In this document: in pieces, positions 5,036-52,080 of the stretch
Numbering within the stretch: position 1 is the stretch's first letter
Layout: each line of letters begins with the position of its first letter
Origin: Microcaldota archaeon
GTDB taxonomy: Archaea; Micrarchaeota; Micrarchaeia; Micrarchaeales; CABMGC01
Length of the DNA: 64,000 bases
Reading direction: 5' to 3'
NCBI GenBank assembly: GCA_021852055.1
Contig: JAJZOD010000012.1
Location: forward strand, 3,931-67,930
The notes under the pieces: generated by a model
What the model was told of the DNA's origin: nothing
Databases searched by the model: none
The model's input: the letters and a program-made list of their open reading frames with translations, nothing else
Translations under genes and position numbers: made by a program

Positions 5036-7990
5036 ATGGACGTATCAAGCAACATAGGCGGCACAGAAGCATCAACTGCCAGCGCGTCTCAGGTCAAGCC
5101 TACAGCGGACAGTAGTGGAAAGCGAAAACCCCTTATTCTTGTACTTGCCGGAGCCGTCATAATAGCGGTATTAGCTGCCATCTTATTTGGCTCGGGAGTT
5201 TTCAACGGCAATAGGGCAACCATGCCAAATTCAGCATTAAACGGCTCCACAACTACTGCTGTTGCTGCCGTTAACGCAACAAACAGTGCAGCAGTACGGC
5301 TCAATGGCACGCTGTACGTCGTAAACCAATATGGATATTCGTCTGGCAATCTGGTTGCGTTAAATCTGTCTTCAGGCAAGGCGACAAGCAGTGTAAATTC
5401 AGGTACAATCTCGTTTTACGATCCGTCGCACATCGCAGTCTACGGCAACACTGCATATATAGTTAATCGGCAGGGCGGCAGTCCTCTGACCCACAACGGC
5501 AACATAACTATAATGGATCTTGCAACAAACGCCATAATAGGCAGCATAAACTCTGCCGCTTTCGACGCACCCACTGGCATAAGCACATACGGTTCAACGG
5601 CTTATGTGCTAAACGTCTTTGGAGGTCCGGCCGGATACGGCAATGTAATTATAATCAACCTTACAACTGACAAGGTAGTGGGAAGCATAAACTCCACTGC
5701 GAACGTGCTATTCAACAATCCTATGTATGCGGCATCATCTGGTACAACAGAATACGTAGTAAATGAGCAAGGCGGTCTGCCAATAGACGGTACAACTGGT
5801 GGCAACATAACGATACTCAACACTGCCACAGGCACTGTAACCGGCAGCATAAACTCCAATCTGTTCTTTGGCCTTGCAGGCATAGCCATCTCGGGCAACA
5901 CCGTTTATGTGGTAAATCATCAATTAAGCCTCAATACGAGCGGCAGCAGGATGTCCACTGGCAGCATTCTCTTAATCAATATGCAAAGCAATCAGGTGGT
6001 CGGCAGCATAAGCTCCAACGCCTTTGGTGTACCTGCAGGCATAGCCATCTCGGGCAACATTGCATATGTACTTAATCAACGTGGCAACTTCGGCAATAAC
6101 GGTAGCAATGTCCTAATAATAAATCTCACAACCAGACAAGTAACTGGCAGCATAAATTACACGGAATTTACTGATGCTTACCCAGTAAGCATCACTGTAT
6201 CCGGTACCTTGGCATATATCGTGAACCGGGAAGGCGGCGAGTACATGAACGGAAATATTATCATAATCAATCTAACCGATGGCAAGATAGCTGGCAGCAT
6301 AGACTCTCCTGCCATTGATTTCTATCTTGACACACCCGGCGTAGCCATCTCAGGCAACACCGCTTACATAGCAAACTCAGCCGGCGGAACTACGGGAACA
6401 GGCAACATACTTGTAGTCAATCTCTCCAACGATCAGATAGCTGGCAGCATAAACTCCGGCGGATTCGCAACACCAGAAGCAATCACACCCGCCGGCTCAA
6501 ATCTATACGCGTTAAACCAGTACGGCGGTGCATATAACACAGGCAATGTAGTGATAATAAATCTTACAAATAGCAAGATAACCGGAGCCATAAGTGCCGG
6601 TACAGGGTTCAACTGGCCCAGTGACATAGCTGTTTCCGGAACAACAGCATATGTTACGGATCCGGCAGATACTGGTGTCTTAATAGTAAACCTTACCACA
6701 AAGAAGATAACAGGCAGCATAAGCTCCAACGTCTTTGCTGTACCTGAAGGCATAGCCATCTCGGACAACACCGCATATATAGCAGATAGATTCGGAGGGG
6801 TATACGACAACGGCACGATAGTGATTGTGAACCTTACAACTGACAAAGTAGTTGGAAGCATAAACTCAAGCGCCTTTGACTGGCCTTCGGATATAGCCAT
6901 AAGAGGGACAAAGGCTTACGTAATAAACCAGGACTCAAACTCCACTGCTGCATCTGCAGGCAACATAGTAGTAATCAACCTCACCGACAATCAGATAATG
7001 GGCAGTATCAACTCCAAAGAGTTTTATGCCCCCGCCGGCATATTTATTCGGGGAACAACCGCATATGTTACGAATCCTTCTAGCAGTCTGTACAAAACGG
7101 GTGCCATACTTCTGGTTAATCTTACGAACGACAGCATGGCCGGCAGCTTAGGTTCAAGGATAGGATTTGACAATCCTGCAGGCATAGCCCTCTCGGGTTC
7201 AACAGTCTATGTGGTAAACCACAACAATCCAGTTATACTGGAGATAGATTCCGCCGACGGCAAGATAACCGGCAGCATAAGCTCATCCGCGTTCGCAGGA
7301 AGGCCATACGCCAACGCACCTACCGGCGGTTCCTATGGAATAGCAATATCGGGCTCAACAGCTTACGTGACAAATCCCAATGGTGGGTTGTCAAACAGCA
7401 GTAACGGATTCTCTTCTTATCCATCGCCTGCTGAGAACCAATTCGGCAACGTGATAATAGTCAACATTTCGACAGGCCAGGTGACGGGCAGCATAGCGTC
7501 CAATTCGTTTTACTACCCTACCGGGATCGCAGTCTCAGGCAATCTGGCGTTCGTGGTAAACTCATACACTGACTTTGGCGACGGCATCGCTTACGCCAGT
7601 GCGGGTGGCGGCAGAATCACAATAATAAATCTCACGGATTACAAGGTAGTGGGAAGCATAAACTCCTCAATGTTCTATAATCCTGTAGGAATAGCAATAT
7701 CGGGCTCAACGGCTTATGTTGCAAACGTGAAGGGAGGAACGAACGGCAAAGGTGACGTACTGATTATAAACACGAAAACAGGCCAGGTGACGGGCAGCAT
7801 AGAGTCCAATTTGTTTTACTACCCACTAGGAATAACCGTACTGGGCTCCGACGCGTTCGTAACAAACAACGCCGGGCAACAGCCAGGGAATGTTGGAAAT
7901 ATACTTATAATCAACCTTACAACTGACAAGGTAGTGGGAAGCATAAACTCCACGGCACTCTCCAGTCCTATTGGAATAACTGCGATATGA
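5036..7990 (+). CDS. Large secreted/membrane-anchored beta-propeller-like repeat protein
   Basis: N-terminal TM (LILVLAGAVIIAVLAAILFGSG), then many ~45-50 aa repeats of the form ISGNTAYVVN..GG..GNIIIINLTTDKVVGSINSSAF. Confidence 0.85.
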   Translation: MDVSSNIGGTEASTASASQVKPTADSSGKRKPLILVLAGAVIIAVLAAILFGSGVFNGNRATMPNSALNGSTTTAVAAVNATNSAAVRLNGTLYVVNQYGYSSGNLVALNLSSGKATSSVNSGTISFYDPSHIAVYGNTAYIVNRQGGSPLTHNGNITIMDLATNAIIGSINSAAFDAPTGISTYGSTAYVLNVFGGPAGYGNVIIINLTTDKVVGSINSTANVLFNNPMYAASSGTTEYVVNEQGGLPIDGTTGGNITILNTATGTVTGSINSNLFFGLAGIAISGNTVYVVNHQLSLNTSGSRMSTGSILLINMQSNQVVGSISSNAFGVPAGIAISGNIAYVLNQRGNFGNNGSNVLIINLTTRQVTGSINYTEFTDAYPVSITVSGTLAYIVNREGGEYMNGNIIIINLTDGKIAGSIDSPAIDFYLDTPGVAISGNTAYIANSAGGTTGTGNILVVNLSNDQIAGSINSGGFATPEAITPAGSNLYALNQYGGAYNTGNVVIINLTNSKITGAISAGTGFNWPSDIAVSGTTAYVTDPADTGVLIVNLTTKKITGSISSNVFAVPEGIAISDNTAYIADRFGGVYDNGTIVIVNLTTDKVVGSINSSAFDWPSDIAIRGTKAYVINQDSNSTAASAGNIVVINLTDNQIMGSINSKEFYAPAGIFIRGTTAYVTNPSSSLYKTGAILLVNLTNDSMAGSLGSRIGFDNPAGIALSGSTVYVVNHNNPVILEIDSADGKITGSISSSAFAGRPYANAPTGGSYGIAISGSTAYVTNPNGGLSNSSNGFSSYPSPAENQFGNVIIVNISTGQVTGSIASNSFYYPTGIAVSGNLAFVVNSYTDFGDGIAYASAGGGRITIINLTDYKVVGSINSSMFYNPVGIAISGSTAYVANVKGGTNGKGDVLIINTKTGQVTGSIESNLFYYPLGITVLGSDAFVTNNAGQQPGNVGNILIINLTTDKVVGSINSTALSSPIGITAI

Positions 7991-8059: not shown

Positions 8060-8776
8060 ATGCTCGATACAGCAATAATACTTGCAGGGGGCCAGGGAAC
8101 GAGGCTCAGACCAGCAGTGCAGCATATACCTAAAGTCATGATAGAGGTGCGTGGCCAGCCGCTGCTTAGCTATGTGATACGCGATTTTGAAAGGCAGGGG
8201 ATAAAACGCATAGTAATATCAATAGGCTACAAAGCAGACAAGATAGTCGAGCATTTTGACAAGCAGAAGCATGGCTTCCCTTCAGAACTGATATACTCTA
8301 TAGAAGACAAGCCGCTGGGCACCGGTGGCGCAATAAAACTTGCTGCAAGGCAGCTCCGATCACAAAGCGACATTCTTGTTGCGAATGGCGACACCATATA
8401 CCAGTTTGACATCAATGAGATGTACCGCATTCACAAAGAGAGCAATGCATTTGTAACTGTGGGGCTTACTACAGTTGATGACATAAGGGCATTCGGCGCA
8501 GTCGAGGTACACGGAAACATCATAAAAAGGTTTACAGAGAAGCCCAAGCTTTCCGTGCCTACCCCCGGCATAATAAATGCCGGTCTGTATATAATAAGCG
8601 AACGTGCCCTGCACAAGCTGCCTGCAGAAGAGGCATTCTCATTCGAGCGCGACTTTCTCGAAAAGGTGATAAGCACCGAGAAAGTGTGCTGGCATAAGAT
8701 ACAGGGCTTCTATACTGTAAACAACATAGAGCAGTACTTTGACATGCTCAAGAAGCTTCCGCAGCAGAAGCAGTAA
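8060..8776 (+). CDS. NDP-sugar pyrophosphorylase / sugar-1-phosphate nucleotidyltransferase
   Basis: AIILAGGQGTRLRP...PKVMIEVRGQPLLSY, the nucleotidyltransferase signature. Confidence 0.9.
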   Translation: MLDTAIILAGGQGTRLRPAVQHIPKVMIEVRGQPLLSYVIRDFERQGIKRIVISIGYKADKIVEHFDKQKHGFPSELIYSIEDKPLGTGGAIKLAARQLRSQSDILVANGDTIYQFDINEMYRIHKESNAFVTVGLTTVDDIRAFGAVEVHGNIIKRFTEKPKLSVPTPGIINAGLYIISERALHKLPAEEAFSFERDFLEKVISTEKVCWHKIQGFYTVNNIEQYFDMLKKLPQQKQ

Positions 8777-9719
8777 AAAGGCAAGCAATTCCGCATTTTA
8801 TCAAAGCAGCAATATATGCGTTTGGGAATTCTTGCTGTGTTCGGCACCTATTTATATCAAGAACAATACACATAAGCTAAATATTACTGGTGGATATACG
8901 AGTAGCATAAAATCAAAATCTCAGCGTTCAGCGCAGAGTCAAGCAGCAGCAGATGCAATTGCCGCCTTACCCGGTTCTGCATCCCACAGCGCAGCACATG
9001 ACGAGTTGCCTTTTGTCGGATTGGAAAAAATTTTTGTCGGGATAGAAAAAAGCAGCTATCTGACTTCAATTAATCCCAAGTCCTCTCAAACAAAGCACTA
9101 TTTAAATTATCCGAAGGACAAAGGCATAGACGAGCATATGCCTGGACCTCAAGTCAGGCTGACAAACTTCAAGATATTTTTCGGCGGTATCTCGCAGTTC
9201 AATATCTGGGTTAACGACTGGATGTATTGTTTAAATGCAACAAAACTGTCAGCATTAAATGACCTGTCAATTGCTGTCGAAGTTCCAAAACCATGGTCTG
9301 ATCCTGCAAGGATGCTTATTGAAAAAAGGCGCAAAAGCTATCAGTATAATGGCCGTGAAATAAAGCTTGCCATAGGTGGTTATATAACCTACTCTATTAA
9401 ACAGGACACTGCCTTTTCAGTATCGTATTTGCCGCTATTATTTGTAAGCGCTTGTGACAAACAAGGTCTGCGCAGGCTGCCTTACATTATCGAATTTATG
9501 GCAGTAAGCGTGCTTGCCTGCGATGGCGTTAAATACATCTCAACAACCCAATGTCCAAGCCCTCTCAGGACTGCACAGCTGTCGAGAATAGGGCTGCCGG
9601 TAAACCAGGCAGTGCCTATCTCAGACTGGCTGTCCTCGATGAAAAGAGGTGCAGAAGCAGTATCAGGTGCATCAGTCGAATCCTTGCTGAAGATTACAAA
9701 CAACGCATCAAACCCTTAA
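8739..9719 (+). CDS. Uncharacterized protein; paralog of the 33351..33929 product
   Basis: Long ORF; the 5' part overlaps the preceding gene, so the true start is probably downstream (in-frame TTG 8832 or ATG 9138). C-terminal half aligns with the 33351 ORF without gaps over 64 aa. Confidence 0.7.
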   Translation: MTCSRSFRSRSSKKASNSAFYQSSNICVWEFLLCSAPIYIKNNTHKLNITGGYTSSIKSKSQRSAQSQAAADAIAALPGSASHSAAHDELPFVGLEKIFVGIEKSSYLTSINPKSSQTKHYLNYPKDKGIDEHMPGPQVRLTNFKIFFGGISQFNIWVNDWMYCLNATKLSALNDLSIAVEVPKPWSDPARMLIEKRRKSYQYNGREIKLAIGGYITYSIKQDTAFSVSYLPLLFVSACDKQGLRRLPYIIEFMAVSVLACDGVKYISTTQCPSPLRTAQLSRIGLPVNQAVPISDWLSSMKRGAEAVSGASVESLLKITNNASNP

Positions 9720-31696: not shown

Positions 31697-33244
31697 GTGT
31701 TTGAGATGGATGCCATTCTAGTCCTGAATTTCGGCGGCCAGTACTGCCACCTTATAGCAAGAAGGATACGCGACAGCGGCGTTTACTCGGAGATAGTGCC
31801 TAATGATATGACCATTGATGGCATAAACGATATGAAGGATAGGCTTAATATAAAAGGCATAATACTTTCGGGCGGGCCTTTAAGCATATACGAAAAGGAT
31901 TCTCCGCAGATGGATAAAGGCATAATAAGAAGCGGCATTCCGATACTGGGCATATGCTATGGCCATCAGCTTCTTGCACACTACCTTAATGGGAAGGTTG
32001 TCAAGGCAGAAAAACAGGAGTACGGATATTCACATGCAGTTATAAAAAGCGCAAAAGGCATATTCAGCGGACTTTCAAAAACAGAAGAGGTATGGATGAG
32101 CCACGGCGACACTGTTGTGTCCATGCCTGCAGATTCAGAGATCGCCGCAAGCACGGAGAACTGCCCTGTTGCAGCTTTTGCATCAAAAGGCATGAAGGTT
32201 TTCGGAGTGCAGTGGCACCCTGAAGTAGTGCATACAAAGAACGGCAAACTCCTCCTTGACAATTTTATATTCGGCGTATGCGGTGCAGTGCAGGGATGGA
32301 ATCCCGATAAAGACGTTTCAGAATATACTGACATGATAAGCGGCAAGGTGGGAAAAGGCAATGCCCTGATAGCCCTGAGTGGTGGAGTTGACTCGAGCAC
32401 TGCCGCCCTTCTTTCATCAAAATCCCTCGGCAAAAGGCTCACTGCAGTATTCATAGATACCGGGCTAATGCGGAATAATGAATCCGAACAGGTTAAAAAC
32501 ATTGCAGCCAAATTGGGCATAAACCTGCTATGCATCGATGCCGGCAAGAATTTCCTAAAGGCACTGAAAGGAGTGTCGGATCCCGAAGAGAAGCGAAAAG
32601 TCATTGGCAGGGAGTTCATACGCGAGTTCGAGAAGGTTGCAAGGGATGTAAATGCCGACTACCTGATACAAGGGACAATCTACCCTGACAGGATAGAATC
32701 CGGAAGCATAGGCAAATCAAGCGTTATAAAAACGCACCATAATGTAGGCGGGCTTCCCAGCGATATAAAGTTCAAAGGCGTTATAGAGCCGCTCCGCGAC
32801 CTGTACAAGGACGAGGTGAAAAAGCTGGCGCTCAAGCTTGGCATGCCAAAAAACATGGTGTACCGGCAACCATTTCCAGGCCCTGGCCTCGCAGTCAGGA
32901 TAATCGGCAGCATAGATCCCGAAAAGATACGCATTTTAAGAAGAGCCGATGCAATAATCGCTTATGAAGCCGAAAGCTCCGGATTCAGCGATAAGCTCTG
33001 GCAGTATTTTGCAGTGCTGACCGATATCAAAAGCACCGGGGTAAAAGGCGATGCGCGCACATACGGCAGCGTAGTGGCAATAAGGATGGTGGAGAGCACG
33101 GATGCGATGACGGCCAATTTCGCAAAGCCTCCTTATGAACTTCTTGAACGAATCTCTACTCGATTAACTGGGGAGATACCCGAGGTCACGCGCGTAGTTT
33201 ATGATGTGACGCACAAGCCTCCATCTACAATCGAGTGGGAGTGA
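31697..33244 (+). CDS. guaA: GMP synthase, fused glutaminase and synthetase
   Basis: LGICYGHQ; FGVQWHPEV; ALSGGVDSSTAA; C-terminal VTRVVYDVTHKPPSTIEWE. Confidence 0.95.
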   Translation: MFEMDAILVLNFGGQYCHLIARRIRDSGVYSEIVPNDMTIDGINDMKDRLNIKGIILSGGPLSIYEKDSPQMDKGIIRSGIPILGICYGHQLLAHYLNGKVVKAEKQEYGYSHAVIKSAKGIFSGLSKTEEVWMSHGDTVVSMPADSEIAASTENCPVAAFASKGMKVFGVQWHPEVVHTKNGKLLLDNFIFGVCGAVQGWNPDKDVSEYTDMISGKVGKGNALIALSGGVDSSTAALLSSKSLGKRLTAVFIDTGLMRNNESEQVKNIAAKLGINLLCIDAGKNFLKALKGVSDPEEKRKVIGREFIREFEKVARDVNADYLIQGTIYPDRIESGSIGKSSVIKTHHNVGGLPSDIKFKGVIEPLRDLYKDEVKKLALKLGMPKNMVYRQPFPGPGLAVRIIGSIDPEKIRILRRADAIIAYEAESSGFSDKLWQYFAVLTDIKSTGVKGDARTYGSVVAIRMVESTDAMTANFAKPPYELLERISTRLTGEIPEVTRVVYDVTHKPPSTIEWE

Positions 33245-33350
33245 CAATAAAAGTACAAATTAAGCGCAAACAAGGCAAAAAGCAAAAAGGCAAAAGCAAA
33301 AAGGCAAAACAAAGCTTATATATCAGTAAATTATTATTCAAAAAGATGAA

Positions 33351-33929
33351 ATGGCCTACAAGAACCTGCTGCATTCGGCGCCCTCGGGGAACGAGCTCTG
33401 CATCGGGGTAAAGGCCGAGCGCTGGAAGTATCTGGGACTAGAGTGCGTAACGTACAAATTTTATACTGGATCGCAGGAGAGCCAAGTACGTATTTCGCAG
33501 CTCGTATCCGTGTTCAGGGCCCCTGCTTTCTGGAAGGAAGAGCTTGAGAAACATCATGGCAACAACACAGAGACAGCAAGATACATGGGGCGCATAAGCT
33601 ATGGGCACTCTATGCCTATTCCAAATTGTTCCTATGCTGCAGCTGAGGTGTTCGAGTACTACCCTAAGGAGGGTCTAAGTAAGGGCATGGCCTACGGGCT
33701 GCCTTATTTTTTGGAGTCCATAACAACCAAAAACGAAGAGAATTTGGGAAAAACACACATTCAGACGCGTACTCCGCAAAGTATTTTTAGGATAAAGCAA
33801 CTGCATCGCATTGGCCTAGCAGTAGGAAACGATGTTGCAATAAACTACTGGATAAAGTCACTACTCCGTGGCGTGCATCAGGTAACGGGAACAGATCAGC
33901 TGCTGGACAACATACTTGCAGACCTGTAG
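33351..33929 (+). CDS. Uncharacterized protein; paralog of the 8739..9719 product
   Basis: 192-aa ORF; block LPYFLES...RIKQLHRIGLAVGNDVAINYWIKSLLRGVHQVTG aligns gaplessly to the other ORF. Confidence 0.75.
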   Translation: MAYKNLLHSAPSGNELCIGVKAERWKYLGLECVTYKFYTGSQESQVRISQLVSVFRAPAFWKEELEKHHGNNTETARYMGRISYGHSMPIPNCSYAAAEVFEYYPKEGLSKGMAYGLPYFLESITTKNEENLGKTHIQTRTPQSIFRIKQLHRIGLAVGNDVAINYWIKSLLRGVHQVTGTDQLLDNILADL

Positions 33930-33989
33930 AATATATCCTGATGCGCGTTGGCCTACTCTGCTTTTATCTCGTTAATTCTGAAACAGCCT

Positions 33990-34123
33990 GGGGTTGCCGG
34001 GATTTGAACCCGAACTTGCAGGTTTCTTCATACAAGAATTTCCAGATCTTCATCACAGCCAAAGGCTCAAAGTCTATTAAACATTCTGGAGCCTGCCGCG
34101 CTGCCAAGTTACGCCACAACCCC
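33990..34123 (-). tRNA. tRNA-Trp(CCA) with ~62-nt intron at 37/38 (intron about 34024-34085)
   Basis: Acceptor GGGGTTG/CAACCCC, D arm with GG, anticodon stem GCAGG/CCTGC, loop CTCCAGA, T arm TCGGG-TTCAAAT-CCCGG. Confidence 0.9.
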
Positions 34124-34344
34124 TCTCCGCTGCTGTGTAAAATTACTGCGTAAAGGTATTAATATTAATGCTTATTCTGGTTCTGCATATATTGCGCGCG
34201 CTGGATGCGATATGCTTTCAAAGCATAACATACTTATTTAAGCTTTAAAGTCAAAATAATCTAGTATAATTTTAAACTATGCCTACTAAAGCATCCGGAG
34301 TCGAATCCCCGCATGCATGCAAGCAATACGCAATATATGATTTT

Positions 34345-51955: not shown

Positions 51956-52080
51956 GCCAGGGTGGCAGAATCTGGTAACGCGCTGGTCTTGAGCTTTCAA
52001 AGCCGCAAGAGCTGATACGGTGATGCAACAGGCGAACCAGTGCCCTTCGGGGCTTTAGGGTTCAAATCCCTACCCTGGCG
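51956..52080 (+). tRNA. tRNA-Ser(UGA) with ~41-nt intron (about 51994-52034)
   Basis: Acceptor GCCAGGG/CCCTGGC, discriminator G, anticodon stem CTGGT/ACCAG, long variable arm TGCCC-TTCG-GGGCT, T arm TAGGG-TTCAAAT-CCCTA. Confidence 0.88.

Follow-up and report, generated by a model that had tools for sequence, protein, structure and literature searches.

Two divergent proteins of a Micrarchaeota genome belong to a multi-copy family probably derived from the GNAT superfamily

Gcn5-related N-acetyltransferases (GNATs) hold their cofactor by a turn of the form Q/R-x-x-G-x-G/A before helix alpha3, which binds the pyrophosphate of CoA, and a proline in this turn would take away a backbone NH that normally touches the pyrophosphate. 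Two Pfam families of these enzymes are relevant here, PF00583 (Acetyltransf_1), with RimI-type enzymes and the SSAT/thialysine acetyltransferase NATA, and PF13302 (Acetyltransf_3), with enzymes of the RimJ/RimL type. Micrarchaeota contain genomes of about 1 Mb in which many genes lack annotation. We analyzed a stretch of 64,000 nucleotides from such a genome (assembly GCA_021852055.1, contig JAJZOD010000012.1; hereafter the window), in which an initial annotation had described the ORFs 8739-9719 (copy 1) and 33351-33929 (copy 2) as a distant paralog pair of no known family. The two ORFs are part of a genuine, previously unnamed, multi-copy protein family. We consider this family, at a probability of about 0.7, to be derived from GNATs, with rebuilt ends and with an altered cofactor site in the window copies, as judged from sequence profiles and a predicted fold. 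With this tentative tracing, two genes listed as 'unknown' gain a biochemical hypothesis that can be tested; the family would illustrate how strongly a widespread enzyme fold may diverge within DPANN archaea, and since one branch has lost the cofactor turn, enzyme and pseudo-enzyme could be compared directly.

Both ORFs are present in the window sequence. The alignment of their C-terminal halves from which the relationship had been proposed, 64 residues without gaps and with 24 identities, is exact and lies at window positions 9477-9668 and 33699-33890. Its ungapped BLOSUM62 score of 93 stands 9.8 standard deviations above that of shuffled sequences (mean -61, standard deviation 16, maximum 7 in 20,000 shuffles), and BLASTP aligns the whole proteins with 36% identity over 75 residues (E = 2e-10). 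A first scan of genome contigs with a single copy as query found nothing. The initial annotation would have counted it as a refutation if a profile of one copy missed the other; this did not happen, since with the 33351 protein as query the whole 1.02-Mb genome yielded the 8739 ORF at E = 1.5e-5. Neither this search nor a profile of 42 members found a third copy in the genome, the profile returning the same two copies. The positions of these and all further features are collected in Table 1.

The reading frame first assigned to copy 1 is probably too long at its start. The TTG at 8739 falls within the preceding NTP-transferase gene (8060-8776; PF00483), and the frame contains 89 codons upstream of the TTG at 9006. 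This second TTG fits the family better because in the family alignments the conserved N-terminus begins just after it, which would give a protein of about 237 aa; the exact start is unsure since no ATG or GTG lies in frame upstream of it. The NTP-transferase gene and copy 1 are flanked by genes for a 984-aa NHL/PQQ-like propeller-repeat protein (5036-7990, + strand) and a 1034-aa S-layer protein (PF05124; 9881-12985, + strand). For copy 2, the TATA-like box upstream of the ATG suggests a separate and leaderless transcript. The ORF of 70 aa that follows copy 2 ('MRVGLLCFYL...GCRDLNPNLQV', 33941-34153, + strand) is an artefact, being antisense to a tRNA gene. A further tRNA gene of the window (51956-52080, + strand) has an apparent insert near the anticodon and a long variable region, and it is recognized by Rfam and missed by ARAGORN.

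Table 1. Coordinates of the features discussed, in window positions unless a homologous locus (L) is given.
Feature	Position	Strand	Remarks
Copy 1, likely coding region	9006..9719	+	237 codons plus stop; profile match E 2.9e-43; F-[IV]-G-[VI]-Y just after TTG 9006
GNAT-like core of copy 1: GGYITY ... SYLP ... RLPYIIE ... PSPLRTAQLSRIGL	9375..9596	+	hhalign and hmmsearch register onto GNAT beta3-beta4-alpha3-beta5-alpha4
Putative degraded cofactor turn of copy 1, RLPY	9474..9485	+	GxG/A expected (GNAT motif A)
C-terminal helix of copy 1 (predicted), PISDWLSSMKRGAEAVSG	9618..9668	+	place of GNAT beta6-beta7; aligned with helix 171-192 of the L117 model
TATA-like box, cttatatatc	33316..33325	+	about 30 bases before ATG 33351; read directly from the sequence
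Copy 2, 192 aa	33351..33929	+	profile match E 8.5e-46
GNAT-like core of copy 2: GRISYG ... YYPK ... GLPYFLE ... THIQT ... SIFRIKQLHRIGL	33588..33818	+	hhalign and hmmsearch register
Putative cofactor turn of copy 2, GLPY	33696..33707	+	first glycine kept, second replaced by proline
C-terminal helix of copy 2 (predicted), AINYWIKSLLRGVHQVTG	33840..33890	+	aligned with helix of the L117 model
tRNA gene with intron, convergent to copy 2	33989-34123	-	anticodon loop CCA, i.e., Trp; found by Rfam, not by ARAGORN
tRNA gene beyond the G072 relative of copy 2	L035 10685-10774	-	convergent
tRNA-Cys-like sequence beyond the G024 copy	L037 about 5449-5519	-	

Within the taxonomic family of the source genome, 11 of the 79 genomes searched contain members; across the phylum, 34 of 301 genomes do so with a 17-row profile and 37 with the 42-row profile, the latter count taking in a few weak matches of which one (G162) is itself a GNAT. 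Six genus mates searched lack the family, and no member was found in virus, phage and plasmid collections including IMG/VR. As far as these 301 genomes and collections allow to search, the family is confined to the phylum Micrarchaeota; the members at three loci stem from named records, all of Candidatus Micrarchaeota (isolates REEA6, REEA68, and FK2.bin61). Copy number reaches seven in genome G272, four in G275, and three in G175, and tandem copies occur in these three as well as in G011 and G012; three of the seven G272 members form a head-to-tail array (L083 7098-9247). Directly upstream of the tandem copies of REEA6 and REEA68, a small kinase-like gene was observed (L117 6275-6889, HGDIHWDNV; L118 5106-5702, HGDINWGNV). 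In the close group of members, the columns P58, W61, G80, Y103, P105, Y119, E122, R147, Q150, W167, and G174 (copy-2 numbering) are invariant. For one close homologous pair, dN is 0.0099 and dS 0.164 (dN/dS 0.06), and thus purifying selection acts on that member at least.

A maximum-likelihood tree places the tandem copies of G275 and those of G272 each in a clade of their own with 100/100 support, so that expansion took place inside these lineages. Copies 1 and 2 are not nearest relatives: copy 2 groups with a G072 gene (95/79), copy 1 sits on a long branch and is weakly placed near G070, and both of these genomes belong to one genus other than the source genus. Since the copies are unpaired in the tree and the genus mates carry none, they are more likely old and divergent relatives, separated by an ancient split accompanied by loss or transfer, than products of local duplication. 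The suggestion of a lineage-expanded family thus holds for the arrays of G272, G275, and G175 and fails for the window pair as a recent local expansion. Within the stretch that also contains copy 2, the guaA gene (31697-33244) encodes a GMP synthase with 62% identity to that of G072 vs. 56-57% to those of genus mates, and searches of three genus mates did not recover it, a pattern for which transfer or loss is possible. A comparison with empty sites downstream of guaA was uninformative because synteny with genus mates is too poor.

Searches of Pfam, NCBIfam, PHROGs, PADLOC, and PDB sequences gave no credible match for the members; those to MotY, Wzc, DUF6341, Imm57, and the like are scattered, each hit by one member, and were dismissed as chance. 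None of the GNAT family models matches any of 42 members, every Pfam threshold being missed, and the curated GNAT models of Pfam, NCBIfam, and PHROGs do not take in the family's members. In the family alignment, the order of motifs is Y-x-P, G-L-G-Y-x-x-E, T-H-x-x-T, and P-S-x-x-R-x-x-Q-L-x-R-V-G-L, with V-x-P, G-x-G, beta5, and N-x-x-A...GF as GNAT counterparts. These motifs would mark the end of beta3-beta4, the turn G-L-G-Y followed by alpha3, beta5, and alpha4, respectively, of a GNAT core kept in the C-terminal half. As the alignment suggested such a core, profile tests against GNATs were run. With hhalign, the profile of 42 members aligned to a Micrarchaeota PF00583 profile over 80 columns in the same motif stretch (P 0.0022, score 26.9), at a hhalign probability for GNAT of only 13-20%; the register is nearly unchanged in most sub-alignments. 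Column shuffles (150) scored 9.8 on average and 16.6 at maximum, the reversed profile scored 11.3, and control profiles of NUDIX proteins and methyltransferases gave P values of 0.2-0.8 apart from one NUDIX value of 0.065. Using the closest relatives alone, or against GNATs of the PF13302 type, P was weaker (0.06-0.3). When run across the phylum, the family profile moreover matched a protein that is itself PF00583 at 7.8e-19, with an E of 2.6e-4 for that genome, which becomes about 0.08 after correction for 301 genomes; this match counts mainly because a GNAT was hit in the same register. When about 800 proteins from outside the family were scored unfiltered, the top two ranks went to GNATs (20.5 and 17.8 bits), ahead of about 780 others and well clear of the best non-GNAT at 8.9 bits; as a group, GNATs outscored the other ORFs (p 3e-6).

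The sole reliable structural model was obtained by AlphaFold2 for the L117 homologue from an alignment of seven sequences (pLDDT 79, pTM 0.78); single-sequence prediction was unusable (pLDDT 33). Along its chain, four strands and one helix are followed by a beta hairpin, another helix, a single strand, and a closing pair of helices. A Foldseek comparison with the PDB, one of the checks proposed for the two proteins and here applied to this homologue, returned GNAT-fold acetyltransferases as the first 11 matches, among them NATA2, SSAT, KKT23, Rv0998, and a cAMP-binding acyltransferase, none with E < 0.001 and with a TM of about 0.4 at best. About 75 columns of the model superimpose on RimI and HP0935 at 3-4 A, and the two best matches in BFVD are also GNATs (probability 0.97 and 0.96). 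Since E stays above 0.001 and TM near 0.4, the predicted likeness would extend to the GNAT core and not to the whole domain. The model departs from standard GNATs at both ends: in its N-terminal topology, where a four-strand meander plus one helix would replace beta1-alpha1-alpha2, and at the C-terminus, where a long helix with the pattern I-x-x-W-L-x-G-M/L-x-R-G would replace beta6-beta7. The assertion that the proteins belong to no known family is thus upheld with respect to sequence databases, while for ancestry it probably fails, as the profile-profile comparison, the profile match on true GNATs, and the predicted fold point to this superfamily.

The ancestral enzyme would have moved an acetyl or other acyl group from CoA onto an amine, either of a protein or of a small molecule; this chemistry, the substrate, and CoA binding by the family are inferred. 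GxG/A is kept in 33 of 52 members and missing in 19, both window copies included, and the Arg/Gln of motif A is gone nearly everywhere in the family; neither window copy shows Q/R-x-x-G-x-G/A. The Glu after the turn is retained in 45 of 52 members and resembles the 'GYATEA' style of RimJ/RimL-type GNATs. Members with GxG/A may have retained acyl transfer; catalysis by the two window copies is doubtful since the glycine turn that holds CoA is lost in both, and their affinity for CoA is probably low, or else they have another ligand or act as non-catalytic binding proteins. GNAT membership is not claimed as proven because no curated model matches and the window copies lack motif A.

Several explanations have to be weighed here. 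A mechanistic version of the GNAT-derived reading, to which we give slightly less than even odds, is that the window copies are pseudo-GNATs which inherited the fold, lost acyl transfer, and serve as ligand sensors or binding partners. Besides the window copies, many of the proteins most closely related to them have lost the turn (GLPY, RLPY, RISY, RIAY, NISY), while most of the distant members keep GxG/A; in these copies, the columns P, W, G, Y-x-P, E, R, Q, and W outside the turn vary little or not at all. However, some true GNATs function with an unusual motif A, and a catalytic role would account just as well for the strong conservation of E, R, and Q. It is a rather doubtful, broader proposition that the GNAT core was taken, both ends were rebuilt, and CoA binding was dropped in the branch that includes copies 1 and 2, giving rise to DPANN-restricted, multi-copy, non-enzymatic ligand- or protein-binding domains. 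The family could also represent a separate alpha/beta superfamily resembling GNATs by convergence or chance, in line with the empty searches of Pfam, NCBIfam, and PDB sequences, the weak Foldseek matches, and an N-terminal half without GNAT counterpart. We judge this unlikely: profile-profile comparison, profile-sequence search, and predicted fold all pick GNATs, both sequence methods do so in the same register, and the shuffled, reversed, and other-family controls lie clearly lower bar the borderline NUDIX value.

The genomic context bears on two further explanations. In 34 homologous loci and the window, no conserved neighbour or small partner gene was found and few neighbouring genes recur beyond the synteny of close relatives, and the surroundings give no pointer to a substrate or partner. 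The patchy spread, the variable copy number, and the GNAT-like core would suit a toxin which acetylates aminoacyl-tRNA, and tRNA genes adjoin three copies; TacT/AtaT-like systems, however, have an adjacent antitoxin gene, usually of the ribbon-helix-helix type, whereas the family loci lack such a partner, the tandem arrays are made of the family itself, and no PADLOC match is repeated. Missing a partner gene, the toxin-antitoxin explanation was rejected as highly improbable. The tRNA genes could instead indicate cargo of integrative elements that insert at tRNA 3' ends: a gap of 60 bases separates the end of copy 2 from the 3' end of the convergent tRNA gene with its intron, the nearest relative of copy 2, in G072, has another tRNA gene of like orientation at a distance of about 45 bases, the tRNA-Cys-like sequence follows about 60 bases beyond the G024 copy, and the six genus mates searched lack the family. 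Yet such adjacency is seen in only 2-3 of about 18 copies in the taxonomic order, an unsystematic look noticed no integrase, and IMG/VR, phage, and plasmid collections hold no member, which makes this origin quite unlikely.

The GNAT-derived reading is best placed beside the known systems it calls on. The top-ranked Foldseek match to the model, Arabidopsis NATA2 (PDB 7ovv), and the runner-up, moss SSAT (7zkt), reach E values of 0.07-0.1 and a TM of 0.36, a resemblance rather than a confident match. With PF13302, the family has in common G-x-G-Y-[AG]-x-E-[AG] at the start of alpha3, where GLGYATEAM of the family compares with GQGYGTEAL and GKGYAKEAL of RimJ/RimL-type GNATs of the phylum, at hhalign P values of only 0.06-0.09 and without a Pfam match. 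From PF00583 the family would differ by its N-terminal beta meander in place of beta1-alpha1-alpha2, by its C-terminal helix in place of beta6-beta7, and by the absent Arg/Gln of motif A. By the alignments and the model, the family and PF00583 would share the order beta3-beta4-alpha3-beta5-alpha4, the Pro after beta4, the Gly turn before alpha3, and a capped alpha4 ending in [LV]-G-[LF], and PF00583 is the source of the best PDB fold matches and profile matches for the family.
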